Shown here: piece after piece, positions 5,937 through 39,616 of the stretch
Layout: every line of letters starts with the position of its first letter
Position numbering within the stretch: position 1 is the stretch's first letter
Assembly: GCA_029245725.1 (NCBI GenBank)
Contig: JAQWOT010000061.1
Span: forward strand, 1-48,624
Source: SAR324 cluster bacterium
Lineage (GTDB): Bacteria; SAR324; NAC60-12
Direction: 5' to 3'
Length of the DNA stretch: 48,624 bases
Position numbers and translations under genes: made by a program
Notes under the pieces: model-generated
Told to the model about the DNA's origin: nothing
What the model saw: only the letters and a program-made list of their open reading frames with translations
The model's database searches: none

Positions 5937-7367
5937 ATGCAATTTCAACCAGTAATTGGGCTAGAAATCCACGCCCAACTTGCCACACAATCCAAAATAT
6001 TTTGTTCCTGCTCAACCCAATTTGGCAAGCCCCCCAATGAAAGCACCTGCCCCGTCTGTCTTGGATTACCCGGGGCACTGCCAGTTTTGAACCGTCGTGT
6101 TGTAGAATTTGCCATTAGACTGGGCTTGGCGACTCACTGCACCATTCGATTGGATTCACAGTTTGCCCGCAAAAACTACTTCTATCCTGACCTGCCGAAA
6201 GCCTACCAGATCTCTCAATTTGACCGTCCCATCTGTGAAAATGGCTGGCTAGACATTGAGGTGGATGGGCAAACTCGCAGAATCAGTATCACACGCATTC
6301 ATATGGAAGAAGATGCTGGGAAACTGGTTCATGAGGAAGATGGTGACTCCAGTTTTGTCGATCTGAACCGGGCTGGAGTACCACTTCTGGAAATTGTCAG
6401 TGAACCAGACCTCCGTACTCCCGAGGAAGCAAAAGCCTACATGGAGAAGATGCATTCCATCGTCACGTATCTCGGAATCAGCGAAGGAGATATGGAAAAG
6501 GGTCATTTTCGCTGTGATGCCAATGTCTCACTACGACCTATGGGGCAAGAAAAATTTGGGACCCGTACGGAAACCAAAAACCTCAACTCCTTTCGCTTTG
6601 TTCAACAGGCTATCACCTATGAAATTGCTCGCCAAACAGAAGATCTTCTAGATGGCAAGCGAATCGTCCAAGAAACCAGGTTGTGGGATTCAGTAAAGAA
6701 GAACACCTACAGTATGCGCTCCAAGGAGGAAGCACATGACTACAGATATTTCCCAGATCCTGATTTGCCTGTTGTCAGAATATCCTCAGATTTTGTTGAG
6801 CAGATCCGCAATCAACTCCCAGAATTGCCAGACGCCAAAAAACAGCGTTTCATGGAGTCATTTGGACTGAGCACCTACGATGCTGAAGTGCTAGTCGCAG
6901 ACAAACAGGTCGCAGAATTCTTTGAGGAAGTAGTTGCAGCCAAAGCTGATCCCAAATTGGTTTGTAACTGGATCAGTGGTGAACTGATGCGACTAATGAA
7001 TGAAAACAAGGTGGATATCAGCAATGTTGGCATTCCCGCCGAAAGCCTCGCTAGTCTGATTCAATTTTTGCAGGAAGGTTCGATTAGTGGAAAAATTGCC
7101 AAGACTGTTTTCGATGAGATGGTGCAGTCTGGTAAAGATCCGGCTACAATCATTGAATTTCGTGGATTGAAACAAGTTTCTGACAAGGGTGCCCTACGAG
7201 TTTTGCTAGAGAAATTGTTAACAGACAATCCAAAGCAGGTTGAACAATACCGAGTTGGCAAAACCCAAATTAAGGGATTTTTTGTTGGTCAGGTGATGAA
7301 GGAAACCAAGGGACAAGCAAACCCACAGGTTGTGAATCAGCTTCTAGAGGAACTACTCAATGGATAG
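5937..7367 (+). CDS. gatB: aspartyl/glutamyl-tRNA(Asn/Gln) amidotransferase subunit B
   Basis: Subunit of GatCAB, which amidates Glu-tRNA(Gln) and/or Asp-tRNA(Asn). It opens with [11 protein letters not shown], then the zinc-type cysteines in FCSCSTQFG and [57 protein letters not shown] and [10 protein letters not shown]-like [10 protein letters not shown], with the C-terminal YqeY/GatB tail domain (about 330-476) that contacts tRNA. Length 476 is normal. gatA and gatC are not nearby, so the complex is split across the genome. Its stop overlaps the ccmC start by eight bases, implying translational coupling with a functionally unrelated gene. Confidence 0.97.
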
Positions 7368-8058
7368 TGCCGCTCGCTGGACAGCCCGGCTAGAAATCAT
7401 CGCACCACTAACACTATTCGCATGTGGCCTCTGGGTATTTGTCTTCACTCCCACAGAGACCGAGCAGGGTTTTGTCCAAAAAATTATGTACATTCATGTA
7501 CCCTCTGTCATCGTCACCTACTTAGCCTTCTTTGTGACTTTTGCCTTCGGAATAGCCTATTTGTGGAAACGCCTTCTTGTCTTTGATCGGATCGCCAAGG
7601 TCTCCGCTGAAATCGGCCTGATTTTCTGCGCAATGGTTTTGCTTTCGGGGGCAGTCTGGGGTCGTCCGACCTGGGGAACTTATTGGGTGTGGGATGCCCG
7701 CCTTACCACCACCTTGCTGTTGTTTCTGATTTTTCTCGGCTACTTCCTTCTGCGACTTTCCGTTCAAGATCGTGAGAAAGAGGCCCGATTTGCCTCGGTG
7801 CTAGGTATTATCGGCTTTCTTGACATCCCAATTGTACATAAATCGGTGGAGTGGTGGCGCACCTTGCACCAGCCTTCTACACTCTTCAAAGTACAGGAAG
7901 GGGCCGCCAAACCTGCTATGCCTCCAGAATTACTTTATCCTCTATTGGCAAGCATGTTTGCCATGCTGCTATTTTATGGATACTTGCTGCTGCTAAGATG
8001 GCAAATGGAAGAAAACCAGGACCAACTTCATGAAGCACTTGCCCAAGAGGTCAACTGA
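7360..8058 (+). CDS. ccmC: haem exporter / haem-handling membrane protein CcmC
   Basis: Inner-membrane protein of cytochrome c maturation system I that presents haem to CcmE. Six hydrophobic segments are visible. The periplasmic tryptophan-rich WWD motif is at residues 100-116 ([17 protein letters not shown]), flanked by the two expected haem-ligand histidines, His46 in YIHVPS and His160 in [11 protein letters not shown]. Length 232 residues is typical. It overlaps gatB by eight bases and its TGA shares ATGA with ccmD. ccmA, ccmB, ccmF, ccmG and ccmH are not in the window. Confidence 0.96.
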
Positions 8059-8201
8059 TGCCCATGAATCTGGAATATGTGCTAATCAGCTATGGACTCT
8101 GGGTTTTGGCTTTCGTGATTTACATCCCTTGGATCAAACAGAAACGTAAGGTGTTCCAACAGTCTTTGAAAACCCTTAAGGAAACCCAACGCCAGAAATG
8201 A
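8058..8201 (+). CDS. ccmD: haem exporter small membrane subunit CcmD
   Basis: A 47-codon gene nested between ccmC and ccmE, joined to both by ATGA overlaps. I read [19 protein letters not shown], a hydrophobic segment (about residues 5-25), then a basic tail with IKQKRKVFQ and a Q/K-rich end. This matches CcmD: one transmembrane helix followed by a positively charged cytoplasmic tail, and the position between ccmC and ccmE is the conserved one. In E. coli CcmD is needed for release of holo-CcmE from CcmABCD. Identification rests on position, size and topology, as CcmD sequences are weakly conserved. Confidence 0.85.
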   Translation: MPMNLEYVLISYGLWVLAFVIYIPWIKQKRKVFQQSLKTLKETQRQK

Positions 8202-8632
8202 AGACTCGTCACAAATTCGTAATTGGAGGTGCTGTTATCTTTGGTGTTTTAGCGGCCTTATCTGTGCAGGGGCTACAAGAGATGACGGTCTACTTCTACA
8301 CACCCCAGGAAGTTCTGGCGGCACCCACCGATTTTCAAGAAAAAACCATTCGAATCGGTGCTCTTGTTCAACCAGGTACTGTCAAATGGGATGCACGTAG
8401 TATTCGACTGGCATTTCACATCACCGAAGACTCCATGCACTCCATTCCAGTGATATATGAGGGTGTGAAACCGGATATGTTCCGAGAGGGCCAGGGAGTG
8501 GTGGTCGAAGGTCGGATGCAGAACGGAATCTTTGAAGCACAACAGTTGCTCGTCAAACACAGTGAGGAATACAAAGTAGACCACAACCAAGTGGCCTCCA
8601 AGGAAGATTACTACAAGTCCGTCATTCAATAA
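8198..8632 (+). CDS. ccmE: cytochrome c-type biogenesis haem chaperone CcmE
   Basis: Periplasmic, membrane-anchored chaperone that binds haem covalently and passes it to apocytochromes. An N-terminal anchor (about residues 6-27) is followed by the OB-fold domain with YFYTPQEVL, IRIGALVQPGTV, and VIYEGVKPDMFREGQGVVVEG. The haem-attachment site is VKHSEEY, with His121 as the covalent ligand and Tyr125 as the axial ligand of the family's H-x-x-x-Y motif. Length 144 residues is normal. It starts by ATGA overlap with ccmD and ends six bases before the NtrY-like kinase gene. Confidence 0.96.
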   Translation: MKTRHKFVIGGAVIFGVLAALSVQGLQEMTVYFYTPQEVLAAPTDFQEKTIRIGALVQPGTVKWDARSIRLAFHITEDSMHSIPVIYEGVKPDMFREGQGVVVEGRMQNGIFEAQQLLVKHSEEYKVDHNQVASKEDYYKSVIQ

Positions 8633-10903: not shown

Positions 10904-11950
10904 CTAGACTAAACTCATCAACTTACTGGCAATATCAGAAAGTGGCACAGCGGTTTCTGCACCACCGTTATTCAGCACCTCATGGGGCATACCAAACACT
11001 ACACAAGTTTCCTCACTTTGTGCGATAGTCCGGGCACCTCGTTCTCTCATGGACAGCATCCCCTTGGCCCCATCGTTCCCCATGCCGGTCAACATCACAC
11101 CCACCCCCTCAGCACCAGCAGTATCTGCCACAGACTGCATCAGTACATCTACCGAGGGACGATGACGTGAAACGAGCGGTCCCTTGACGATATCCACGAC
11201 ATACTTTCCATTCTTGTTTTTCAATCGCATGTGATGATCCCCTGGAGCTAAAAGCGCTCTACCCGGATAAACCTCATCCCCATCTTCTGCTTCCTTCACC
11301 TCAATCTGTGACATCTGATCAAGTCGCTGCGCAAAGGAATGTGTGAAGTGCTCCGGCATGTGCTGGACAATCAATATACCCGGCGTCATTGGGGGTAACA
11401 GTGGAATAATATTTCGCAAAGCCTCCGCCCCACCTGTCGAAGCACCAATTGCAATTATTTTGTCTGCAGCCCTTGCTAAAGAAGGGGATTTCAGAGGACT
11501 TGGTTTGCTCTGGATCTTTTTTTTCTGCAACAACTCGTTCATGTCAATCTTCGCTGCCCAGACAAGAGTATCTGTCAAGCGGGCCAACATTGCCTTGAAG
11601 GCCACAGGATCTTCTGGGTTGGGTTTTGCGAACACTTCAATAGCCCCTAACTCGAGGGCTCTTAGAGCTTGATCCCAGTGATCATCGACGATTGAACTCA
11701 GCACAATGATCGGCATGGGCCAGTGTTTCATCAAGACCTCCATGAATTCCAAGCCATCCATTCTTGGCATCAGCAGGTCAAGGGAGATCACGTCAGGATT
11801 CCTTTCAATGATCATATCCCTAGCTTGGTAAGCATCCTCAGCAGCACCAACGACTTCAATACGTGAATCACGACTGAGTTCTTTTGTGAGTACATTTCTT
11901 ACAATAGGTGCGTCATCCACGATCAGCACTTTGACTGGCCCACCTGTCAT
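10904..11950 (-). CDS. cheB: chemotaxis protein-glutamate methylesterase CheB
   Basis: Demethylates and deamidates receptor glutamates for adaptation. Receiver domain (about residues 6-125) with acidic VDDAP, phospho-acceptor Asp58 in SLDLLMPRMDG and conserved Lys109 in AKP. A linker rich in K, S and P follows, then the methylesterase domain (about 163-348) with catalytic Ser171 in IGASTGG, His197 in VQHMPEHF and Asp293 in GMGNDGAKGM. Length 348 is normal. Last gene of the ten-gene minus-strand operon, 45 bases after cheR. It ends 15 bases from the convergent NtrY-like gene. Confidence 0.97.
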   Translation of the reverse strand: MTGGPVKVLIVDDAPIVRNVLTKELSRDSRIEVVGAAEDAYQARDMIIERNPDVISLDLLMPRMDGLEFMEVLMKHWPMPIIVLSSIVDDHWDQALRALELGAIEVFAKPNPEDPVAFKAMLARLTDTLVWAAKIDMNELLQKKKIQSKPSPLKSPSLARAADKIIAIGASTGGAEALRNIIPLLPPMTPGILIVQHMPEHFTHSFAQRLDQMSQIEVKEAEDGDEVYPGRALLAPGDHHMRLKNKNGKYVVDIVKGPLVSRHRPSVDVLMQSVADTAGAEGVGVMLTGMGNDGAKGMLSMRERGARTIAQSEETCVVFGMPHEVLNNGGAETAVPLSDIASKLMSLV

Positions 11951-11995
11951 TTCATTTGCCTCTGAATTTTGGATAAAGAGTTGGATTCATCCCTG

Positions 11996-12814
11996 TTAGA
12001 TCCGTTGGTAAATGGAGCTTTGTACATACTTCAAGGAATTCTGGAGACCAATTAAACTTTCCGAGTGACCCACAAAGAGATATCCACCAGGTTTGATATA
12101 GCCACTCAAACGTTCAATCAATTTTTCTTGGTCACCACGGTCGAAATATATCATGACATTTCGACACAGGATGCAATCAAACTGGGTCCGTAACGGATAT
12201 TCCTGAATTAGGTTCAAGCGGCGAAATCGAATCAACGCCTTCAATTGACTACTAACCTGAAACATTTCTCCATTAGTTTCTGGGAGAATCTTACAATAAC
12301 GATTGCGCAAGACTTCCGGTATTAATTGCAACTGATTGACTGGATAGCGACCTAGTTCTGCCTGATCCAGCATGTGAGTCGAGATATCAGTAGCTAGAAT
12401 CTTTGCATCTCGACCACCTAATACTCCACCAAACGCATTGAGCAACGTCATTGCAATGGTGTAGGCTTCTTCACCACTTGAACAGGCACAACTCCATATC
12501 CGGATTGTTTGCTGTTTTTGGAGGTGGGGGTAAACCTCATTCTTTAAAAAAGTGAAATGATCACTTTCCCGAAAGAAATCCGTCTTGTTCGTAGAAACAG
12601 CGTTTAACAACAAAACCATTTCTGAACCAGTTTCATCATTCAGGACGTGCGCCCAATACTCTCCGTATGAGTTGATTCCAAGTTGATACATCCGGCGGTA
12701 TAGCCGAGTCATCAACAACTGCTTTTTCTGTAGTGACAGGCTAATACCGATACTTTCATGTATCAGTTTTCGGAAGTCTTCAAACTCCGAATCATCCATT
12801 TGAGGAAGTAACAT
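11996..12814 (-). CDS. cheR: chemotaxis protein methyltransferase CheR
   Basis: S-adenosylmethionine-dependent methylation of receptor glutamates. N-terminal helical domain (DSEFEDFRKLIHESIGISL, with TRLYRRM and NKTDFFRE), then the Rossmann methyltransferase with IRIWSCACSSGEEAYTIAM, ATDIS, and CRNVMIYFDRGDQEKLI, ending with GGYLFVGHSESL. The frame extends to a TTG at 12820, but the ATG at 12814 is the likelier start (272 residues); it begins just after the TGA of the upstream receptor gene, whose final codons supply a GGTGG sequence. Operon member between the haem-motif receptor and cheB. Confidence 0.96.
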   Translation of the reverse strand: MLLPQMDDSEFEDFRKLIHESIGISLSLQKKQLLMTRLYRRMYQLGINSYGEYWAHVLNDETGSEMVLLLNAVSTNKTDFFRESDHFTFLKNEVYPHLQKQQTIRIWSCACSSGEEAYTIAMTLLNAFGGVLGGRDAKILATDISTHMLDQAELGRYPVNQLQLIPEVLRNRYCKILPETNGEMFQVSSQLKALIRFRRLNLIQEYPLRTQFDCILCRNVMIYFDRGDQEKLIERLSGYIKPGGYLFVGHSESLIGLQNSLKYVQSSIYQRI

Positions 12815-12823
12815 CTGCAAAGT

Positions 12824-14551
12824 TCAACCACCCAAATTTTTTGTATTTGAAGGTAACTGCAGACGTTCTAATTTGCTCTGATTATTCAGCCTGTTTTTCG
12901 AAATTTGGGTTGAATTTTCATCACCTGAGATTAACCCTTCAATCTCTTTGATCAGTCCTAGCAGATGTAAATTTCCTTCATGTAGCTGATGGGCTTCAAT
13001 CAAGGTCTTATCTGTGAAGTTCTTGTTTTGGTGTTCATTTTCATCCATCTGCTGAAGAAGACAGAGCAGACCTTCTGTTTCCTTTGATTGGGACAGTGAC
13101 AACTCACTCACTTTAGAAGCTCGACCGTTGATGTCAGTGACATTGTCGCTATTTAGAAGAACAGACTTTGCCAAGTCTTCTACAAAATCTGAAAGAGCTT
13201 CAAATTTATTCTCTAATTGCTTCAGTGATTGATTTCCTCTATCAGCCAACTCTCCTATTTGCATACCTTGCTGTGCTGAATCTGAGATCAGTTTTGAAAT
13301 CTGATGAGTTGCAAGCTTTGAGTTTTCAGCGAGTTTAGCGACCTCATTTGCCACTACTCCAAACCCTTTTCCATGCTCACCTGCCCTAGCTGCTTCAATC
13401 GCAGCATTTGTAGCCAACATTTTTGTCTGCTGAGTAATACTATTCAGGGACTCCAAAATTTTGTTGATGAGTAAGCCACTATCTCTGACATCAAGTAACA
13501 CACTCATAATATTTACCATTGATTCAGAACCCTCTTTGATAGAATTTCTCATACCTGAAACAGCCTGCTCTGTGGATTGGGATTGAGCAATGATCTGTTG
13601 AAACGAGTCGTTCAATTGATCAGTGGAATTTATGTTCAATTGGGCCTTGTCTTGATTTTCCAGAGCGTGTGTTCCAAGTTCCTTAGTCTTTTCCATCACC
13701 TTCAGAAGCTGAGCAGCTTGGTTCTCATTCGACAAAGCCACGCTATTACTATTTTGCCTAACCTGTTCAGCGATTATTACCTTATTGTGGGCCATTTGAT
13801 GCAGTCGAATGACAAAACTTTTTAGTCGTCTCAAGATCGAATGAGTGACCATAAATGCTATCGCCAGCCCAAAACAAAGCACGATTAGACTCACCAAGAG
13901 GAGTCTTGGTATGGTTTCTTGGAAAAGATCCGAAATAAGTTGAAGATCTACAATCACAGCAAAGGCTCCTGGGATTTCTCCAACTTTCCACCCACGCAAT
14001 TCATTCTTTAATGATGGATCCTGCTCTAGACTTTCATTGGCACCATGGCAAACTAAGCATTCCTGACCCACTCGAATGGGACTGATATAGCGGACAACAT
14101 TCTGTTTTGCATCTACTTGAAATAGTTCATTGGGCTCATTCTCACGCATTTGATTGAGGACATCCAAATCTGTGAGCACAGCTTCATTTGAGGTGTTTTC
14201 TCGAATTACTCGTAAATTGTAGTACTCACTTTTCAATCCTTGCTGAGCGACTTCCTGGGCGAAATGAATGGGTATTACGCTAGGGGAAAGGCTTTTAATA
14301 CTGCTTATATTCTGACTGATTAATTGCTCCTTCTCTCCCAATTTCCCAAGGTGCTTAGCATGAATCTGAGCACTTTGTTTCAAGACAATATGAGCCTGCT
14401 GTGTCACTGCTATGGATTCAGATAGAATCTCCTCCATCACCTGATCTTCAATCAAAACCCAATTGACACCTAATCGTAGTAGAGCAAGCACAATTATTAC
14501 AAAACTACTGGCAAGCAGAATTCGGGACATTAGCCCCCATCGAAACACCAT
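12824..14551 (-). CDS. methyl-accepting chemotaxis protein with periplasmic c-type haem motif
   Basis: Membrane receptor of 575 residues. First membrane helix about 10-34, second about 213-236. The periplasmic part (about 35-212) resembles the Tll0287-like/DUF3365 haem-sensor domain: a helical N-part, then [16 protein letters not shown] with a CxxCH motif at Cys165, Cys168, His169, followed by [17 protein letters not shown]. The cytoplasmic signalling domain has the conserved hairpin tip around 378-412 ([20 protein letters not shown]). The CxxCH motif in an exported domain predicts covalent haem attachment by the Ccm system, three components of which lie 5 kb away. Likely a sensor of redox state, oxygen, NO or CO; which one is not shown by sequence. 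Confidence 0.9.
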
Positions 14552-14595
14552 AAGAAGATTGCTCGCTTTGGAGAGAAACCCTGCAAAGAAATTTC

Positions 14596-16005
14596 TCAGA
14601 ATTCTGAGAAGTCTTCCCGCATGGGAATGATATCGGAGGGCTTGCTTTGAGGATCAGGTTTTGGTTTGGACAGATTGGATTGATTGATATTTAAAGTCGA
14701 AGTTTTCATTGCCAGTGGGCGTTTCATCTCTGGATTAAACTTGGGGCCTGACTTTTTTGATGGAGCAGGCAGTAAGCGAGCATTGTTGACAGCTTCCTTT
14801 TTGGGCTTCGGAGCTTGCATTGGTGCTACCTGAGATTTTTTGGAGGTGCCAATCTGGGAAGCGAGGCGATCTACCAAGTCACTCAAGATATGAACTTGTG
14901 CAAAAAGTTGTTCTGCTGCAACGGTTCCAGAATCGGCGTTCATTGCTGATTTCTGAGCAACTTTGATCATGTCCTGAATAGCGGTTGCCAACTCAGGAGT
15001 GTGCTTATTTTGATCTGTTGAAGCCTGTTTGATTTCAATGATAAGCCTCTCAGCTTCTCTCATTTTATCTGTTTGCTCAGAGGCAGAAAGGGCAACATCA
15101 CTTACGAGGTCCACAACTTCAACCACAGTTTGCAGGATATTTTGAAGGGCTGCTTCTCCATCGGCAGCAAGCTTTCCCCCATCTCTAGCTTTGGAAACGC
15201 TTTCTCTAATCAGCTCACCAATCTCACGGGCTGCCTTTTTGGAATTTTCTGCCAACTTGGACACCTCATCAGCAACTACCGCAAAACCTTTCCCCTGCTC
15301 ACCAGCCCGGGCTGCCTCAATCGCTGCATTTGTTGCAAGCATCTTAGTCTGGTGGGTAATCGTATCAATTACCTCGATGATATCTGTAATACGAGTACTT
15401 CCTTCCTGCACACCTCGCATCGCGCTGCTAATCTCACTCATTGCCTGAACCCCACTCTCTGCCGCTGCCCGGGCTTCTGCGGAGAGTTCTAAGGTACGCC
15501 TTGTATTCTCTTCAACAGAGCGAGCAAGGGCATTGATATCCTCAATCTGCTCTGCCACTTGGATAGAACTTGAGGAAAAGACAGCAATCGAAGGCAAAGC
15601 AATTTCGTGCATCACATTAGAAGCCAATTCTCCACTGGTTGCTTGTTGCAGAGAATCGTTAGAAAGCTCAGCAGAATTTTTTGCGACTTGCTCAGAAGCT
15701 TTACGAAGTTGTGAAGAAGCCGTCATCAATTCCTCAACCATCTTTTTCAGGTGTCTGATACTGGCACTTCCTGTATTCCAAAAAATTAATACTGACAGCA
15801 GTGCGAGGATTCCCGCAAGTACTATGAGCCACAGTTCGTGTGTTGCCGAGAGTCCATGCAGCGTTTCTAAAGTCGCTTCATCAAGTGAGGAAGCTTCGAG
15901 CGACAGCAACATTTCTCTCCTGAGAAACAACTCCCCCCCAAGTAGAATCAGCAAAGCTAATACACAGAACCCACAATTGATTAGCCCTCGCATGGAAACA
16001 GTCAT
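14596..16005 (-). CDS. methyl-accepting chemotaxis protein with minimal periplasmic loop
   Basis: Receptor of 469 residues with membrane helices at about 10-28 and 58-76 and only about 30 residues between them, too little for a folded periplasmic sensor. Signal may therefore come from the membrane, or through partner proteins. No clear HAMP domain is seen after the second helix; a helical stretch rich in S, A and Q leads to the signalling tip at about 221-255 ([20 protein letters not shown], then [15 protein letters not shown]). After the bundle comes a flexible tail of about 90 residues rich in P, K and S, ending DFSEF, which fits the loose aromatic pentapeptide that tethers CheR or CheB. 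Starts by ATGA overlap with cheW. Confidence 0.9.
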
Positions 16006-16487
16006 AATGCGATCTCAGGTTGATTTTTTGGGATACTTACCATTGCCTTTGCAGACAAAACATTTTTTAGTTCAAGAACAATCACTACCCTATCCTCCAA
16101 TTTGGCCATTCCTGAAATGAACTCGGCTCTAATGTTAGCGCTCATCTGTGGAGTCTCTTCAAAGCTGACCTCTTCAATCCGGGTTACCCCAATCAAAAAA
16201 TCTACAATGATTCCCGTGAAGGCGTTCCCAAAATCAACAACAATAATGCAGGTTTCATTGGTCGGTGCCGCCTGAGGCATCTTGAACTTGGTCCGCAAAT
16301 CAATCACTGGGATGATCTTTCCACGAAGATTGATCACCCCTTTCATGAAATCGGAGGTATGCGGGACAGGATCAATGTGCATCATGCCCACAACTTCACG
16401 AGCCTCAAGAATTTTGATGCCATATTCCTGGTTTCCTAGCAGGAAAGTCAGTAACTTCCCTTCCGAATTTTCAAATAGATCATTCAT
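16002..16487 (-). CDS. cheW: chemotaxis coupling protein CheW
   Basis: Adaptor linking receptors to CheA. The SH3-like double barrel covers most of the 161 residues: [24 protein letters not shown], the hallmark [18 protein letters not shown], then [21 protein letters not shown] and [15 protein letters not shown] lies about seven bases before the ATG. It lies 28 bases after cheA and overlaps the next receptor gene by four bases (ATGA), so array components are co-translated. Confidence 0.97.
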
Positions 16488-16515
16488 CAGTTTTACCTCG
16501 GCTGATCTTGACTGC

Positions 16516-18714
16516 TCAATTGATCGTCATATTGATGTTGTGTGAGCGATGAATCAGCGTCTCTGGATCTAGAATCAACCCGACTCTCCCATCACCAAGA
16601 ATTGTTCCCCCTGTGATTCCAGGCAGGTTGACAAAGGTTTCTCCAAGATTCTTTACCACAATTTGTTGCCGGTGCAGCAGTTCATCGACCATCAGTCCAT
16701 ATTTTTTCTCACCGTACTTGACAACTACAATGATTGCTTCCTCTGGGACCATCACATCAGCCTCAACATCAAAAAACTCATGAAGCCGCATGATTGGAAT
16801 GACTTCTCCAGCCAGAATCAAACACTCACTTTCTCGATCTTGAACGTCATACAATTGATCCTTTTTTGGAATCAGCGTCAGATGTACATCAAGAATGGGT
16901 AAAACAAAGCAATTTTCGCCCAAACGCACCACCAACCCTTCAATGATTGAGGTCGTCAAGGGCAATTTGATTAGGAAAGCAGTGCCCTTTCCTGTCTCAG
17001 TCTCCACGCTGATTTTACCACGAAGTTTCTCAACCTCTTTCTTCACGACATCCATGCCGACCCCACGGCCAGAAATGTCAGTCACTTCCTTTGCTGTGGA
17101 AACACCACTCGTGAAGATGAACATGAAGATTTGTTGATCAGTGAGGTTTTCTCGCTCATTGATCAAGCCACGCTCCAGGGCTTTTGTAAGCAGTTTCTGA
17201 CGATCCAATCCACGCCCATCATCACGCACCTCAATCAGAATGGAATCACCCAAGTGATGTGCGGAAAGTTTGACGGTTCCCTCTGAGGACTTACCCACTG
17301 CTGTTCGTTCCTCAGGAGTTTCAATTCCATGATCAACCGTATTTCGCATGATGTGCATCAGGGGGGCGTAGATGCTATCTATGATCGTCTTATCAACTAA
17401 TGTTTCATCTCCCTGAATAGTGAGCTTGACCTGCTTACCAGATTTTTTTGAGAGATCCCGCATCTGCCTTGTTAGCTTTGAAAAGACGTTCTTGACCGGA
17501 AACATGCGAATACTGAGAATCCGATCCCGAAGTTGCTCTGTAATCTTGTTCAACTGATCTAATCGGTCATGTAATTCGCGATCTTCCAGATTGGCAATCG
17601 TTGGGTTCTGGGATAAAACCGAGAGTGCAACCACCATTTCACCAATGAACTCAGACAACTCATCAAGTTTAAATGCTGGAATCTTCAGCATATCCATGAC
17701 TTGAGTTGCTGCCACGTTCTCATTCGTTTTTGAAACCTCAGTGGTGGGAGACTTCGAAGTGTTCGTTGAAATCTGGCTCGCTTCAGTGTGAGCTTCCGTC
17801 AGAGTTTTTTGATCTTCAAAGTGAGGTAGTGGGGCTGCACTGATAATTTCAGGAGTAGGATTTTCTGAAGCTGGGATGGATTTAGATACCTCATCACTTA
17901 GCAAATAATCCAAAAGTTGATAAGCCTCTCGAAGATCCACCGACTCTGAACTCATTCCTGCAATCATAGCCTTCATTTGACTAATCAACTTGGATAAACC
18001 ATCTGTAGCACACAGGATTGCGTTTAGGATCTCCAATGTGATTTCGCGTTCTCCCTCGTTGACCTGAACCATCAAGTCCTCTGTCCGATGGGCCAAGCTT
18101 CCCAGATCCGTCAAACCTAAAAATCCAGCAGTCCCTTTGATTGTATGAAAGACACGGAAGATACTAGAGATCGCTTTTTGATCCTCAAAATCTTCTTCCA
18201 ATCTAAGTAGAGTCTCCTCAGTATTCTGTAGCCCTTCCTCAGTCTCACTAATGAACTCCACAAGGGTTTCATCCCCTTTCATCTCTTCGGTACAATTCTG
18301 GAAAATCTCTGCGTAGTCACTGTAGTGATCTTGTGATGCTAAACTCTTCACAGCCTTTGATTTACTATCCAATGCACGGATCAGAATCTTATCGGCGTCT
18401 TCTTGATCTCCCGCGTAAAGGAGTTCTAATGCATTATCAAACTGCTCATGAAGTTGCTGAAATTCTTCCAGACCAGATTCGTATGGAGACAACTCTGCCA
18501 CAATTTGGCCAAGCTTATGCCCCAATTCTCTCAAAACCTTGCTGAATTGAGGCTGCTCCAGTCTATCCATCAATGATGTGAATTCTTCCAGTTCTGAGAG
18601 GATTGCGCCAACATGAGCCAAATCCTGAAAATGCTCTGGCTTCAGAGACATCACATTCATGTTCAGTGCATCACGTTTGATTTGAATTTGATTTTGTTGC
18701 TCAGCGTTCATCAT
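16516..18714 (-). CDS. cheA: chemotaxis histidine kinase CheA
   Basis: Array kinase of 732 residues. The first 145 or so residues form an extra helical region with no motif I recognise. Then comes the P1 phosphotransfer domain with His190 in FRVFHTIKGTAGFLG, a low-complexity S/T/P/E linker (about 275-335) where a P2 domain would be expected but is not obvious, the P3 dimerisation helices (about 343-410), the P4 ATP domain with HIMRNTVDHGIE (454-465), DDGRGLD (498-504) and GRGVGMDVVKKEV (549-561), and the CheW-like P5 domain (about 590-732). Operon position just after the membrane histidine kinase gene. Lack of a clear P2 may affect how response regulators are docked. Confidence 0.96.
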   Translation of the reverse strand: MMNAEQQNQIQIKRDALNMNVMSLKPEHFQDLAHVGAILSELEEFTSLMDRLEQPQFSKVLRELGHKLGQIVAELSPYESGLEEFQQLHEQFDNALELLYAGDQEDADKILIRALDSKSKAVKSLASQDHYSDYAEIFQNCTEEMKGDETLVEFISETEEGLQNTEETLLRLEEDFEDQKAISSIFRVFHTIKGTAGFLGLTDLGSLAHRTEDLMVQVNEGEREITLEILNAILCATDGLSKLISQMKAMIAGMSSESVDLREAYQLLDYLLSDEVSKSIPASENPTPEIISAAPLPHFEDQKTLTEAHTEASQISTNTSKSPTTEVSKTNENVAATQVMDMLKIPAFKLDELSEFIGEMVVALSVLSQNPTIANLEDRELHDRLDQLNKITEQLRDRILSIRMFPVKNVFSKLTRQMRDLSKKSGKQVKLTIQGDETLVDKTIIDSIYAPLMHIMRNTVDHGIETPEERTAVGKSSEGTVKLSAHHLGDSILIEVRDDGRGLDRQKLLTKALERGLINERENLTDQQIFMFIFTSGVSTAKEVTDISGRGVGMDVVKKEVEKLRGKISVETETGKGTAFLIKLPLTTSIIEGLVVRLGENCFVLPILDVHLTLIPKKDQLYDVQDRESECLILAGEVIPIMRLHEFFDVEADVMVPEEAIIVVVKYGEKKYGLMVDELLHRQQIVVKNLGETFVNLPGITGGTILGDGRVGLILDPETLIHRSHNINMTIN

Positions 18715-18780
18715 GAACTGATTACCTATCTGTCCACATCTATTGATTTCTGGAATTGAAGAACAAAAGCAACGAAGATT

Positions 18781-20784
18781 CTAGGCCTCTTGTTCTTCTT
18801 TTTCGTTCTTTGATTTGGTGATTGGCAGAGTGAAAGTGATCTTTGCCCCCTTGCCAATGCCCTCGGATGTCAACTCAACAATACCCTTGTGAAAACGGAT
18901 AAAATTTGCGCAGTCGTGCAAACCAAACCCAGAACCACGCTTTTTGGTTGAATATCCAAATTCAAAGGCCCGCTTCAGGGACTCTGGTTCAGCACCTTGG
19001 CCATTATCTTCAACATACATCTGAAGTTGGTCACTTCTCAGTATCGTGGCTCCCACTCTGACCCTCCCCTGATACCCATCTTTGGAGGCACGCAGACTCT
19101 GATCGATGCTCTCGATGCTGTTCTTGAATAAATTCATAAAGATCTGAACGAGCTTGTTTGGATCATTTTGAATTTTTGGTAGTTCTGGTTGAACTTCTTC
19201 GATAACCATAATGTTTCGCTTATCGAACGCTGGCTTCATCATTTCCATCGCATCATCGATCACCTGTTCAATCTGAACCTCTTCAGTATTCGACTGCTGT
19301 GTCGCGTACTTCTGCTGTAACGCAATAATTTCCGTGATGTGATCAAGCTGATGTGCCATCACATCCATCGACTTAAGTTCATCCTCTTCCTGTTGGTCAG
19401 AGGTTTGGGTGAGTTGCTTGAGGAATGGTAGAAACTGTTGACCACGGGGAGAACTGAAAAAATCTCCCAAGTCACCCTGGTGCTGTTCCAACAAACTATA
19501 CAACTGTTGGAGATAGCTGGAAAACTGTGATTCTACTTTGTTCTGATGAAGCTTTTGGAGTCGGACTACAAGGGGGGTGATGGCGTTCCCAATGTTGTGC
19601 AGAACACTGATTGCGTGTTCAACAATACCGGCGTTGTATGCCTGCTGTACCTGCTTCTTCTTTTCCTCATCCAGCAGACGCATAGTTTCACGAAGTTGTA
19701 GATTTTTTTCATTCAATTCCAAGGTTCGCTGGGAAACTCGCTCTTCAAGGTAACGGTTGTAGGTTTCCAAGCTATTCGCCATATCCGTAAAAGCTCGATG
19801 GAGTTTCTTGATCTCCACCAATTGACTTTCCTTCGGACGCGAAGTGAAATCTCCATCTGCCACCTGGTTAACAATACCGACGAGTTCATGAATAGGCTGC
19901 ATCAAGTGACGACTTAGAAAACGAACTCCCAACAGTGAAATTCCAATGATGATTCCGAAGATCAGAGTCACTAATAACGGCAAACGCACCCCAAGCTTAC
20001 CAATAGCGATTTCCCGGTCGACTTCTACGATTAGACAAGCATTTGGGTAGCCTAGCCAGCGATAAGCCGTCACTACATCATCACCAAAATCATTAACCAC
20101 AACCCCAGATCCTGTAACCTCTTCACGACAATTTCCAATCAGCTGCCAAGTTTCGTCAGACAGGCTTCTATCAGGCATGAACGAGAGTACATTCCCCGCT
20201 GAATCGGCAAAGAATCCTCTGCTTTGTCCGTCCTGATTTCTGTCTGTAAACAACTCCGTCATTGATTGACTGCTGAGCAAAGCTAGCAATTTCGAATTGG
20301 TCCGATCTCGGCCAACCAGTTCCTCATTAGCTACATCTACCCGAATCGGCAGCACAATTGTTCCTGATTTGAGCAACTGCAGAGAGCCAAGTTCGGATTG
20401 ATTGAATTCCTTGAGAGTTTCCCATCTCGTTTCTTCGGGCAATTCACCTGACTTGATCGTTTGCAGCAACTGGCCTTCAGAGTTCAGTTGCCAGATCCCA
20501 GCATAGTGATCGGGTTCAAAAAGGCTTCTCTGCGCAAATGCTTCCGCCTTCCAGAGATTGGGGGCATTAGCTAACTGGCGAATATCCTTTGCCGCATTTT
20601 GATACCACTGATCAGATGCCAGCGCCCATAGTTCTGCTATATGTTCCAGATTTTGTTGCGCTTCCTTCTCCATCATGTTCTGAAAATAAATCAGAGTCAC
20701 TGCGCCTCCAATGAGGCTTGGGAACATGGCGAGTAGGATAAAAGAAATTACAATCTCGTTCTGTAGGCTTCGAACAAACTTCAT
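18781..20784 (-). CDS. membrane sensor histidine kinase with periplasmic domain and HAMP
   Basis: A 667-residue kinase. One membrane helix at about 12-34, a large periplasmic domain (about 35-262, probably Cache-like by layout), and a second helix at about 265-288. Then HAMP (HLMQPIHELVGIVNQVADGDFTSRP begins it), a long coiled coil, and a phospho-acceptor box VEHAISVLHNIGNAITPLV with His396 in the H-N-I-G-N form rather than the common H-E-I/L-x-N form. The ATPase domain has NLFKNSIESID, EDNGQGAEP and KRGSGFGLHD. It sits between the receiver-cyclase gene and cheA, 35 and 66 bases from each. A natural partner for one or more of the three receivers beside it; direct link to the CheA array is inference. 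Confidence 0.9.
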   Translation of the reverse strand: MKFVRSLQNEIVISFILLAMFPSLIGGAVTLIYFQNMMEKEAQQNLEHIAELWALASDQWYQNAAKDIRQLANAPNLWKAEAFAQRSLFEPDHYAGIWQLNSEGQLLQTIKSGELPEETRWETLKEFNQSELGSLQLLKSGTIVLPIRVDVANEELVGRDRTNSKLLALLSSQSMTELFTDRNQDGQSRGFFADSAGNVLSFMPDRSLSDETWQLIGNCREEVTGSGVVVNDFGDDVVTAYRWLGYPNACLIVEVDREIAIGKLGVRLPLLVTLIFGIIIGISLLGVRFLSRHLMQPIHELVGIVNQVADGDFTSRPKESQLVEIKKLHRAFTDMANSLETYNRYLEERVSQRTLELNEKNLQLRETMRLLDEEKKKQVQQAYNAGIVEHAISVLHNIGNAITPLVVRLQKLHQNKVESQFSSYLQQLYSLLEQHQGDLGDFFSSPRGQQFLPFLKQLTQTSDQQEEDELKSMDVMAHQLDHITEIIALQQKYATQQSNTEEVQIEQVIDDAMEMMKPAFDKRNIMVIEEVQPELPKIQNDPNKLVQIFMNLFKNSIESIDQSLRASKDGYQGRVRVGATILRSDQLQMYVEDNGQGAEPESLKRAFEFGYSTKKRGSGFGLHDCANFIRFHKGIVELTSEGIGKGAKITFTLPITKSKNEKEEQEA

Positions 20785-20819
20785 CGAGAACTCAGTTGAT
20801 TTAGAAGATTCGGATTGGC

Positions 20820-22169
20820 TTAGAAATGCTCATCAATCGGTGCATCATCACCATATTCAGCAATGTGTTTAAGGCGTTCCAAGTAAAGCTCAACAAGGTT
20901 GTCCTCAACTCCCATTGAAGCCAGACGCTCAAATTGGGAGCGAGCATCGTCAAATTCTGAGGCGTGAAATGATTTCACAGCTAGCTCGAACAGTTCTAAA
21001 TTTTCTTTTTTGAACTCTCGGAGGTCTTCGTACTCCTCGTCAAAAACCTCATAAAGTCTGACCAGCAGACTTCGACCTCTCACCTTGCGCATATCTACTA
21101 AGCGAATCATGTATTGACTCGAGTCTTTCAGACCATCGTACGTACCTTCACTAATCAACAGATCAGTCTTGAAAGGCTTGGTCAGCATTTCAATGCGAGA
21201 AGCCAGATTGACGGCATCACTCACCACAGAGCTCTCCATTCGGTAGTGCTCCCCAATAGTACCCAGCATCACATTTCCACTATGAATACCTATCCCGATT
21301 CGCACCGAAGAATAACCCGCACGTGAACGCCCTTGATTATACCAGCGAAGCGAACGGATCATTTCAAGAGCTCCACGCACGGCATCGTCTGGTTCCACTT
21401 GGAAAAGCGCCATGATTGCATCACCAATAAACTTGTCGATGATGCCTCGATTCCTCCGGATTACCGGCCCCATCAATCCAAGGTAGGAATTGATGAAGCG
21501 AAAATTTTCTGCCGGTGAGAGACGTTCTGAAAGGGATGTGAAGGAGCGAATATCAGAGAAGAGAATGGACATGGGCATTTCGGCGTGATCGCCAATTTGC
21601 ACTTCCAGAATGTTTTCCTTGTTCAACAGTTTTAGGAATTCCTTGGGTACAAAACGCTCATAAGCTCGGTTCAATTGGTCAATTTCTCGTCTGTAGATGA
21701 GAAACTGAGCCATCTGGGTCAATTCGTCGGGATCAAATGGTTTCTTTAGCAGTAGGAACCGGCTGTCACCAAGTTGATCAGCCATGTTCTGACGAGATGT
21801 ATCTGAGTAGGCTGTAACGATCACAATTTCAATAAATGGATCAATCGTGACAAGCCGTTCCGCAGTTTCCAGACCATCAATGCCCGGAGGCATTCGCATA
21901 TCGATGAAAGCAATTGAAAACGGTTGACCGATTTTGTTCGCCCTGACTGCTTCATCCAAGCCCAGCAACCCTTGGTTAACCGTAGTTACTTCAAAGCACT
22001 GACGGACTCTGCCGACACCTTCTTCAGGAGCCACTCGCTGGGTACCAAAGAGCGAATCTGCCATGGCCTGCAATTCCTCTCCTGCCACGTTAGCCTCAGG
22101 CACCAGAACTGAACGGCAGGTCTCCAGAATTTTTGGATCGTCATCAATGACGAGAATGCGATGAGTCAT
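20820..22169 (-). CDS. response regulator fused to class III nucleotide cyclase
   Basis: A 449-residue receiver-cyclase. The receiver (about residues 4-160) has VIDDDPKILETC, phospho-acceptor Asp90 in FIDMRMPPGIDG, a T/S at VTAYSDTS and Lys142-Lys143 in KKPFDPDEL; between the first strand and FEVTTV is an unusually long segment of about 40 residues. The cyclase domain (about 195-370) has the two metal aspartates, Asp206 in FSDIRSFTSLSE and Asp250 in DKFIGDAIM, the purine-contacting Lys246, Ser314 where Asp or Thr is usual, and Asn321/Arg325 in NLASR. Lysine at 246 points to cAMP rather than cGMP. C-terminal helical tail of about 75 residues. Part of the chemosensory operon. Confidence 0.92.
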   Translation of the reverse strand: MTHRILVIDDDPKILETCRSVLVPEANVAGEELQAMADSLFGTQRVAPEEGVGRVRQCFEVTTVNQGLLGLDEAVRANKIGQPFSIAFIDMRMPPGIDGLETAERLVTIDPFIEIVIVTAYSDTSRQNMADQLGDSRFLLLKKPFDPDELTQMAQFLIYRREIDQLNRAYERFVPKEFLKLLNKENILEVQIGDHAEMPMSILFSDIRSFTSLSERLSPAENFRFINSYLGLMGPVIRRNRGIIDKFIGDAIMALFQVEPDDAVRGALEMIRSLRWYNQGRSRAGYSSVRIGIGIHSGNVMLGTIGEHYRMESSVVSDAVNLASRIEMLTKPFKTDLLISEGTYDGLKDSSQYMIRLVDMRKVRGRSLLVRLYEVFDEEYEDLREFKKENLELFELAVKSFHASEFDDARSQFERLASMGVEDNLVELYLERLKHIAEYGDDAPIDEHF

Positions 22170-22226
22170 GAGGGGCTACCTTCGGAGCTGCTATGCATTC
22201 AGAACTTGGGTTTTAGTGAGCAACTT

Positions 22227-22715
22227 TTAATTCTCCAAGATTTCTTTGTCTCTTCGATTTGCCAAAAATTGAACGATCTGCGTTAGTTCGTCTGGATCAA
22301 AAGGCTTTTTCAATAGTAAAAATCGGCCATCACCGAGTTCCTTGGCCATGCTCATTCGTGAGGTGTCAGAGTAAGCTGTCACAATCACAATTTCGATTGA
22401 GGGATCAATCTCAATCAAGCGCTTCGCAGTCTCCAGACCATTGATTCCTGGTGGCATTCGCATGTCAATGGTCGCAATTTGATAGGGGTTGCCATCGCTA
22501 ATTGCGTTACCTGCTTCCTCCAATGCCAACAAACCTTGATTGACGGTAGTCACTTCAAAGTTATTGACCATCTCTTCTACAACTTCCTCCACACTACCGA
22601 AGAGAGCACTAGCCATCATCTGCAAATCCTGTTTTGCACTTTGATCCTCATCTCCAAGAATAAAGCGGCAGGTCTCCAGAATATTAGGATCATCATCAAT
22701 CACTAAGACACGCAT
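22227..22715 (-). CDS. stand-alone response regulator receiver with enlarged first loop
   Basis: A single receiver domain of 162 residues with no output domain. Visible: VIDDDPNILETC, then a segment of about 35 residues with LQMMASALFG, FEVTTVNQG, phospho-acceptor Asp84 in TIDMRMPPGING, VTAYSDTSR and LLLKKPFDPDEL. It is very similar to the receiver half of the next gene, the cyclase fusion, sharing IEIVIVTAYSDTSR almost unchanged, so the two arose by duplication. AGGAG lies about nine bases before the ATG. It could act as a CheY-like diffusible output, a phosphate sink for the kinase, or a partner of the HNIGN-type kinase; the sequence does not decide. Confidence 0.9.
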   Translation of the reverse strand: MRVLVIDDDPNILETCRFILGDEDQSAKQDLQMMASALFGSVEEVVEEMVNNFEVTTVNQGLLALEEAGNAISDGNPYQIATIDMRMPPGINGLETAKRLIEIDPSIEIVIVTAYSDTSRMSMAKELGDGRFLLLKKPFDPDELTQIVQFLANRRDKEILEN

Positions 22716-22750
22716 AGCTGAAAACTCCTAAACATTGTTCATGTTTTTTC

Positions 22751-23263
22751 TCATTTGCTTTGCTCACCTCTGCGCTGATGCATATCCTGTCGATGAGCCA
22801 AGAACTGAGCCATTTGCATCAATTCATCAGGATCAAACGGTTTTTTTAGCAATTGAAAATTACTGACACCCAATTGCTGCGCCATGCTCTGACGAGGAGT
22901 ATCTGAGTATCCAGTCAGAATGATAATTTCCATGTCCGGATCAATACTCAAAATCTGACGAGCGGTTTCAAGACCATCAATTCCGTAAGGCATACGGATA
23001 TCAACAAATGCCATTGTAAAGGGCTGTCCAGCTTGAATAGCTTTACCAACCTCATCAACTCCAATCTTTCCCTCGTTAACTGTCGTTACTTCAAATTTGA
23101 TATTCAAGGTTTCATCTAGACCATTCTCAACATCTTCCTCAAAAAGCTCACCTGCCATAGACTCTAGTTCTTTCCCAGCTTTTGAAATCTCTGGAGCTAG
23201 AATCATCTGACAGGTTTCTAGAATCTTCGGATCATCATCAATCACCAGAATGCGATGGTTCAT
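22751..23263 (-). CDS. stand-alone response regulator receiver, first gene of the chemosensory operon
   Basis: A single receiver domain of 170 residues. VIDDDPKILETC begins it; the extra segment after the first helix contains LESMAGELFE and is acidic; FEVTTVNEG follows, then phospho-acceptor Asp88 in FVDIRMPYGIDG, LTGYSDTPR, and QLLKKPFDPDEL. It is the most diverged of the three related receivers (IIILTGYSDTP against IVIVTAYSDTS in the other two). The short C-terminal tail is rich in Q, R and H. It is divergent from panC across about 245 bases, which must hold the operon's promoter, though I could not pick one with confidence. Confidence 0.9.
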   Translation of the reverse strand: MNHRILVIDDDPKILETCQMILAPEISKAGKELESMAGELFEEDVENGLDETLNIKFEVTTVNEGKIGVDEVGKAIQAGQPFTMAFVDIRMPYGIDGLETARQILSIDPDMEIIILTGYSDTPRQSMAQQLGVSNFQLLKKPFDPDELMQMAQFLAHRQDMHQRRGEQSK

Positions 23264-37669: not shown

Positions 37670-39616
37670 TCAGTTACTTGGCGGTGAGAGTTTTTTACGA
37701 ATGAAAGTCGGAATGTCTAAATTTTTGTGAAAGTCCCTGCGGTTCTGAAACCCCCGAATGGTCGGTTGCGCAGTTAGAGTTGGATTAGCAGTCGAGATCG
37801 TAGTCTTCCCCGTCACATCAACATTATTTACAATGCTTTCAGTAGTTCTGGACATCTCTTTGAGTTCTTGAGATCGCCGCTTATGAGCATCCGTCAACTT
37901 CTTAGCTGCAGACGAGTTAAAAATTTCCTTTGGGGTTGTCTCAGTTTCTACTACTTCTGGTCGCCTTATCCTTGCACCTGAAGCAGTTGCCACTGCAATT
38001 ACTGGTTCCACAGTTTCTACGATAACAGAGTCTTCATTTCTATCCGGTGGAGCATTTGTTTTTTGGATTGTTGGAATTGCTTCAACCTGGCCTACTGCTT
38101 CGTCTGGTTCCTCTAGCGGAACCCTTTCCTCTAGAAAGTGATTTGTTGGTGCGGCAACATATATCACAGGTTCAACCTCTTCATCACCAACTTCACTTCC
38201 GCCTAGAGAATAAAAAGGAGGTTCTTTCGATTCATCATCTGCAACCTCTGGGATTCCTTCCTCTACTGCATCTAGACTTAGAGTAGGAATCGGTTCTGGT
38301 TGAATTTCATTCTTTTCAATTAGATGCTCAGCCTGGTCGGTTTCGGCTACGAAGCTGATTCTAGGCTCTTCCTCTGGTGCAAATGATGATTCCTCTTCTT
38401 CAATCACTTCTGGTTCTAGGGTGAAAACGATCGCTGGGGTATTTGATTCATTTACTTCCTCTACCTCTACTTCTTCCTCTTCTTCAGTCACTAAAGCGAT
38501 CGTGGGTTCTGAAGGCTCAAATCCAACCATCCTCTCCGGCTCAATTTCTACCTCTTTTATATCCGGTATTTGCTCCTCGGCAATTGGCGACTCTGGAACC
38601 TCTTTGATAATTTCTTCAGCAGAACTTTTCGTTGAAACAGATGGTTGATTATCAAATCCTGTTGCAATCACCGTAATCAAAATCTCATCACCCAAGCTTG
38701 GATTAATGGAAGCACCCCAAATGATCACAGCATCTTCATGACCTTGTTCTTCAATAAATGATGACGCCTCATGAACTTCATGTAGTGTCATGGTTTCGCT
38801 GCCGACAACATTCATCAGAATGCCTCGAGCCCCTCTAATATTGCAATCACTTAGAAGTGGACTTTGTATGGCTCGTTCTGCTGCTCTTCTAGCACGCTTG
38901 TCACCGGAGGCTCGGCCTGTCCCCATCACCGCCTTGCCCTTGTTTTCCATGACTGTACGGACATCAGCAAAGTCCAGATTGACAATGCCGTCTAACGTGA
39001 TCAGATCTGAAATTCCTTGAATACCTTGCCGAAGGACATCATCAGCAAAACTGAACGCTTCCATCAAGGAGGTACGTTGATCAATTATTCCCAACAGATT
39101 ATTATTGGGAATGATAATCAGCGTATCGACGTGCTTTTGCAGTTCTTCAATGCCTTCTTCTGCTAAACGACGACGTTTACTCGCTTCAAAATTGAATGGG
39201 AGTGTAACGACACCAACTGTCAGTGCGCGTGATTCCCGGGCTATCCTTGAGATGACTGGGGCTCCACCAGTTCCAGTCCCCCCCCCCATCCCAGCAGTGA
39301 TGAAGACCATATCCGCTCCATCAATACTCTCACGGATCTGGGCTTCGCTTTCCATCGCAGCTGCACGACCCACCTCCGGCTTCGCACCCGCACCAAGTCC
39401 CCTTGTACTGGAACGCCCAAGTTGCAGTTTGAAAGTCGCCTTGGACTTATTAAGATCCTGCAAATCTGTATTAGCAGCGATGAATTCGATACCGCTTACC
39501 CCTGCATCAACCATTCGATTTATAGCATTTCCACCCCCACCACCAATTCCAATTACCTTGATGTTTGGAGTGTCGCTTTGCACCGGTTGGATGTTAGCAA
39601 ATCCTAAATCAAGCAC
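37670..39616 (-). CDS. ftsZ: cell division protein FtsZ with very long C-terminal linker
   Basis: Tubulin-like GTPase forming the Z ring. The GTPase core occupies about residues 17-322, with [10 protein letters not shown], the tubulin signature GGGTGTGG (111-118), NLDFADVR (213-220, T7 loop) and [12 protein letters not shown]. Then comes a linker of about 305 residues, strongly acidic and rich in E, P and V up to about 545, turning basic by 575-590. It ends in a conserved tail [10 protein letters not shown] (633-642), which binds FtsA and ZipA in other bacteria. The start is GTG at 39616, supported by AAGGAG six bases upstream. Total length 648 compares with about 380-400 in E. coli. It lies 52 bases after ftsA. 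Confidence 0.97.

Follow-up and report, generated by a model that had tools for sequence, protein, structure and literature searches.

The window is the whole stretch of DNA that was analysed (48,624 nucleotides); it is the entire contig C61 of a 4.4 Mb draft genome that is 99% complete. Ten ORFs follow each other on its minus strand, from 23263 down to 10904, and are separated by 35, 57, 35, 66, 28, -4, 44, 3 and 45 bp. The Pfam domains of all ten genes scored above the curated cut-offs and are found in the order REC, REC, REC + Guanylate_cyc, HAMP + HATPase, CheA, CheW, MCP (two genes), CheR and CheB. The coordinates, the order and the gaps of at most 66 bp on a single strand, as given in the first-pass annotation, were confirmed. 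The genes are listed below in the order of the run.

22751..23263, minus strand: stand-alone receiver 1, 170 aa; Pfam REC; phospho-acceptor Asp in FVDIRMP (22988-23008)
22227..22715, minus strand: stand-alone receiver 2, 162 aa; Pfam REC; phospho-acceptor Asp in TIDMRMP (22452-22472)
20820..22169, minus strand: insert-type receiver fused to a class III nucleotide cyclase, 449 aa, predicted adenylate cyclase; Pfam REC + Guanylate_cyc
18781..20784, minus strand: membrane histidine kinase; HAMP + HATPase_c (Pfam); LHNIGN phospho-acceptor box in VLHNIGNAITPL (19570-19605)
16516..18714, minus strand: CheA; Pfam Hpt, H-kinase_dim, HATPase and CheW; P1 His190, P3-P5; HTIKG at 18115-18147
16002..16487, minus strand: CheW; Pfam
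14596..16005, minus strand: receptor (MCP) with no recognised sensor domain; Pfam; C-terminus DFSEF
12824..14551, minus strand: receptor (MCP) with a Tll0287-like sensor; PF11845; CLVCH heme-binding motif at 14045-14059
11996..12820, minus strand: CheR methyltransferase; Pfam
10904..11950, minus strand: CheB methylesterase with a receiver; Pfam

The catalytic motifs had been described as complete, and all of them are present: the acidic pockets and phospho-acceptor Asp of the receivers, HTIKG in CheA, VLHNIGN in the histidine kinase, and FSDIRSFT (21537-21560), DKFIGD (21411-21437) and DAVNLASR (within 21195-21233) in the cyclase. The search of related genomes for the ten-gene order, which had been suggested as a check, found this order, with no gene missing, at locus L056 of G034, another species of the genus. 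Four further members of the genus are consistent with it, their contigs ending inside the run. The ten proteins are 96-99% identical to those of G034, and the comparison of the window with L056 gives dN/dS values of 0.06-0.45 for 10/10 genes. As all ten values are below 0.5, the operon is maintained; as the full order recurs in L056 and is matched at the four loci cut by contig ends, and given these values, it is not a chance assembly. The exact order was also looked for in other lineages and was not found. No full-length fusion of an insert-type receiver to a cyclase was found outside the genus among the matches listed. Promoter and terminator consensus scans gave counts no higher than in shuffled sequence. 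The operon is a composite, made of a two-component module and a complete chemosensory array.

All three operon receivers carry an insert of about 30 residues between helix 1 and strand 2 (alignment). In an AlphaFold2 model of receiver 1 (mean pLDDT 80), the REC fold is kept and extra helices are found at residues 28-41 and 46-53. The insert-type receivers of the window have an RMPxGxxG motif, and the helix 1 of this type reads DDDPxILETC, versus DDSxxIRxxVxxxL in the CheY/CheB/CheA-linked type. Insert-type receivers were found in 7 of the 50 named genomes searched. Their genes adjoin a gene encoding a kinase with an LHN-type box in Pseudomonas, Nitrospira, a gammaproteobacterial MAG and Sphingomonas (one genome, plus one plasmid found separately); none of these loci showed a CheA. 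The box LHN[IV][GR]N is common to the window kinase and to six receiver-adjacent kinases of other phyla (alignment of seven kinases); no publication on the LHNIGN/LHNVGN box was found in the literature searched. These pairs resemble the window in their kinase box and receiver insert but differ from it in that no CheA is seen and in their outputs, e.g. GGDEF-EAL (Sphingomonas) or kinase-like domains. One Nitrospira locus (L220, G092:C30:12001-30000) and one Pseudomonas locus (L218, G081:C5:270001-289000) carry three or four insert-receiver genes and one LHNxxN kinase gene, without CheA; the window likewise has several such receiver genes together. Some insert-receiver loci showed no LHN-type kinase, e.g. 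both Sphaerotilus loci. Since the kinase and the insert-type receiver are paired without CheA elsewhere, the upstream part of the operon corresponds to a two-component module that also occurs independently of chemotaxis.

From its sequence, the fusion protein can be securely assigned to the class III cyclases. Both metal-binding Asp and the transition-state Asn and Arg are kept (FSDIR, KFIGD, DAVNLASR), and the closest solved structures are Cya2 (2w01) and CyaB (3r5g). In class III cyclases, a Lys at the purine position is found in the ATP type and a Glu in the GTP type. This position is a Lys in the DKFIGD motif of the window and a Glu in the guanylate cyclase Cya2. Seven residues before the catalytic Asn, the window cyclase has a Ser (SSVVSDAVN) and not Asp or Thr; the proteins of the two other CheA operons described below (C295 and C315) have a Thr. 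The D of SDAVN was considered as the purine-binding Asp and ruled out, that position being the Ser located seven residues ahead of the Asn. ATP is the likely substrate and cAMP the likely product, but this is not certain because of this Ser.

Nine class III cyclase matches were obtained in this genome. The cyclase tree places that of the window among kinase-receiver-cyclase hybrids and other cyclases (97/82, 100/97) and away from 17 of the 18 CheA-linked cyclases included; the remaining CheA-linked row, L071, is unplaced. The hybrid kinases that bear related cyclases have ordinary HELRTPL boxes and receivers without insert, so that the tree does not single out the LHNxxN kinase. According to the tree, there were most likely at least two origins of receiver-cyclase che operons in this lineage. 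Large genomes of the same family (G028-G032) have 16-32 strong class III cyclase matches each, often in kinase-receiver-cyclase hybrids of 1300-1600 aa.

The window CheA has one Hpt and no receiver (Pfam). It lacks a segment at the P2 position, where the cyclase-linked CheAs of this genome have one, and forms a separate, isolated long branch in the CheA tree. Its N-terminal extension (145 residues, 18280-18714) has no relative in Pfam or the PDB. The DFSEF C-terminus of the receptor encoded by 14596..16005 looks like a CheR-tether pentapeptide, a resemblance only. The other receptor gave a weak match (E=4e-4) to the Tll0287 structure 5b82. Its CLVCH motif was absent from the first-pass annotation; the probable input of this receptor is redox state or a gas, sensed via a c-type heme. 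ORFs resembling the cytochrome c maturation genes ccmC and ccmE (by eye) are found at 7360-8632 in the window, near the operon encoding this CxxCH receptor. A kinase gene separates them from the operon, which is on the opposite strand, so the link may be due to chance.

Three CheAs were found in the genome by PF02895, and 3/3 are encoded with a receiver-cyclase. The C295 operon (L047, G000:C295:4001-22037) encodes STAS, REC-cyclase, CheA, CheW, MCP, CheR and CheB; the C315 operon (L046, G000:C315:1-12126) encodes REC-cyclase, CheA, CheW and CheB. In both, the cyclase gene abuts cheA and the receivers are CheY-like, without insert. The same CheA/receiver-cyclase arrangement was found in other members of the family (G011, G013, G014, G018, G019, G020, G026, G027, G030, G032, G033, G034, G036, G038 and G039). 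In the tree, the CheAs of operons with a CheY-type receiver-cyclase form one clade (13 rows, 100/100) that extends across the bacterial family, and CheAs from this family that have no cyclase gene beside them lie outside it; the rows are part of these CheAs, and L252 was added for its cyclase neighbour and fell in the clade. Chance adjacency of cheA and cyclase genes in cyclase-rich relatives was considered and rejected: of 19 extra CheA loci of large-genome relatives used as a control, one (L252, whose CheA belongs to the cyclase-linked clade) has a cyclase gene directly beside cheA, and these relatives nonetheless gave many cyclase matches. Among the best 80 CheA loci of other lineages, which are a sample, none has a class III cyclase or an insert-type receiver within 9 kb; the same queries recognised the CheA core in 72 of these 80 loci.

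The window operon is not another copy of the C295/C315 type. Both combine a che operon with a receiver-class III cyclase, but they differ in receiver type, cyclase clade, CheA clade and P2 position; furthermore, the C295/C315-type operons have no separate kinase and many of them have a STAS gene. CheA would be the obvious phosphate donor of the C295 and C315 receiver-cyclases, because these operons encode no other kinase and no CheY, and their receivers are CheY-like. To judge from these genes, the C295/C315-type clade would be a better supported case of array-to-cAMP signalling than the window. The idea that receptor input sets a cyclic-nucleotide level, initially put forward for the window operon, is better backed by C295, C315 and the family-wide CheA clade.

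The initial statement that no CheY or flagellar gene lies beside the operon holds locally, but the genome encodes an unlinked CheY (C407, 60% identical to E. coli CheY), flagellins and FliG. A flagellin domain was found in 52/52 genomes of the clade. In this genome, the flagellin N-domain has 20 matches (C105, C125, C290, C293 and others), many of them in tandem, an unusually large set. Four full-length and very similar FliG genes (L162:1885-2892, L163:1067-2074, L164:892-1977, L165:4268-5275) are found among unrelated genes; L162 contains, in addition, a FliN-type gene whose sequence begins with MADMSQDDLDSIF. Deducing an alternative output from the lack of a flagellum is ruled out, the clade being flagellated and an unlinked CheY being present. 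For the same reasons, some array may also serve taxis.

In the proposed mechanism, the membrane LHNxxN kinase would phosphorylate the receiver of the cyclase and thereby set cAMP synthesis, and the two free receivers would share or buffer the phosphate of this kinase. The array (heme-type receptor, second receptor, CheW, CheA, CheR and CheB) would be co-expressed with this two-component module and would adapt through CheR/CheB. It may influence the receivers of that module through cross-phosphorylation, or work via another regulator. We infer the phosphate flow, the cAMP product and the receptor ligand from the sequence. A probability of about 0.6 is given to the receiver-cyclase being driven by the LHNxxN kinase rather than by CheA. 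The first-pass annotation had named either the array or the co-encoded kinase as the source of phosphate. Of these, the kinase gains from the receiver type, from the kinases paired with such receivers in other phyla and from the cyclase tree; CheA is less favoured.

Some features nevertheless argue against the kinase as donor: CheA and all three receivers are encoded by one operon, CheB is the only other CheA target encoded there, and coupling of CheA to a receiver-cyclase does occur in the genome's two other che operons. With the conservation of cheA and the cyclase gene together across the genus, and with the two other cheA genes that abut receiver-cyclase genes belonging to one clade family-wide, they would suit CheA as the main phosphate donor, receptor occupancy then directly setting cAMP. 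This is unlikely, as the receivers of these two operons are CheY-like, devoid of insert and associated with other CheA and cyclase clades, the insert-type receiver is paired elsewhere with LHNxxN kinases and not with CheA, and no class III cyclase or insert-type receiver was found near the best 80 CheAs of other lineages. A convergence of the two kinases, in which CheA would phosphorylate one or both free receivers and these would compete with or relay to the kinase/cyclase pair, is doubtful. Two kinases and two extra free receivers do occur in one operon, and there is a precedent in the Che3 system of Rhodospirillum centenum, where CheY3 is phosphorylated by CheS3 alone and CheA3 acts on CheS3 (PMC3868531); however, the window kinase has no receiver domain (Pfam) on which CheA could act. 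Moreover, several insert-type receivers are encoded beside one LHNxxN kinase without CheA in Nitrospira and Pseudomonas, so that extra receivers do not require CheA.

That the array serves the flagellum via the unlinked CheY, its co-expression with the cyclase module being incidental, is quite improbable. The CheY-like gene of C407, the flagellins and FliG would be compatible with it, as would the lack of a classical cheY in the CheA operons (0/3), but three CheAs compete for this role, the window CheA has no segment at the P2 position and the composite gene order is conserved in the genus.

The window operon appears to be a variant of the known alternative-output chemosensory systems. The core array genes of ACF systems (cheA, cheW, mcp, cheR and cheB) are all in the operon (Pfam). 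In the available part of a survey of CheR-TPR clusters (PMC3447774), the ACF criterion is a multidomain response regulator in the cluster, which in the window is the REC-cyclase, and "mononucleotidyl cyclase" is already among the receiver-fused output domains. As in the ACF systems of this part of the survey, including Wsp and CheR-TPR clusters, a receiver fused to an output enzyme is encoded in the che cluster; the window differs by its receiver, which is of the type paired with LHNxxN kinases, and by its separate kinase, and no cyclase cluster is analysed in that part (PMC3447774).

As the Che3 system of R. centenum illustrates, the kinase that acts on the response regulator of a che operon need not be CheA but can be a second one (PMC3868531). 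Like the window, this system includes a CheA, a second non-CheA kinase and a free receiver, and its output is not flagellar taxis. Both of its kinases, however, are receiver-containing hybrids, and its response regulator is not a cyclase (PMC3868531); the window CheA and kinase have no receivers. In R. centenum, cGMP enters via a separate CgrA/gcy pathway (PMC4681086). The Pil-Chp/CyaB system of Pseudomonas aeruginosa shares with the window a chemosensory array, a class III cyclase and, probably, cAMP, but Chp is described as acting on CyaB only indirectly, perhaps by way of FimL (PMC3019171), whereas the window cyclase is itself an operon-encoded response regulator. ChpA is a multi-Hpt hybrid CheA beside free receivers, unlike the window CheA with its single Hpt and no receiver. 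Neither the composite operon nor the CheA-cyclase clade was found to be described in the literature searched, which lies largely outside subscription journals.

Only two proteins with a cNMP-binding domain were found in the genome. One has a metallo-beta-lactamase fold, the other is a cNMP-binding REC-GGDEF protein, and Pfam recognises a DNA-binding domain in neither. The cNMP-REC-GGDEF protein (L054:7578-9014, G000:C290) is matched in 29/31 genomes of the family; in the sister family, the match is restricted to its REC-GGDEF part. As a candidate reader of cAMP, it would relay this signal to c-di-GMP. For the whole family, a tentative scheme, possible but leaning towards doubt, is that an adenylate cyclase acts as the dedicated response regulator of CheA, that the cNMP-REC-GGDEF protein turns cAMP into c-di-GMP, and that the genus independently added the operon combining an array and an LHNxxN kinase, with the same messenger. 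If a cyclase is indeed the response regulator of CheA, this would be a minimal and directly testable array-to-cAMP route, the Pseudomonas link being indirect. The CheA clade predicts which genomes carry the CheA-cyclase design. The window operon calls for caution, since a cyclase gene in the same operon as cheA need not have CheA as its kinase.

Elsewhere in the window, at 37670-39616, an apparent FtsZ ORF of 648 aa, much longer than usual, lies beside an apparent FtsA (by eye).
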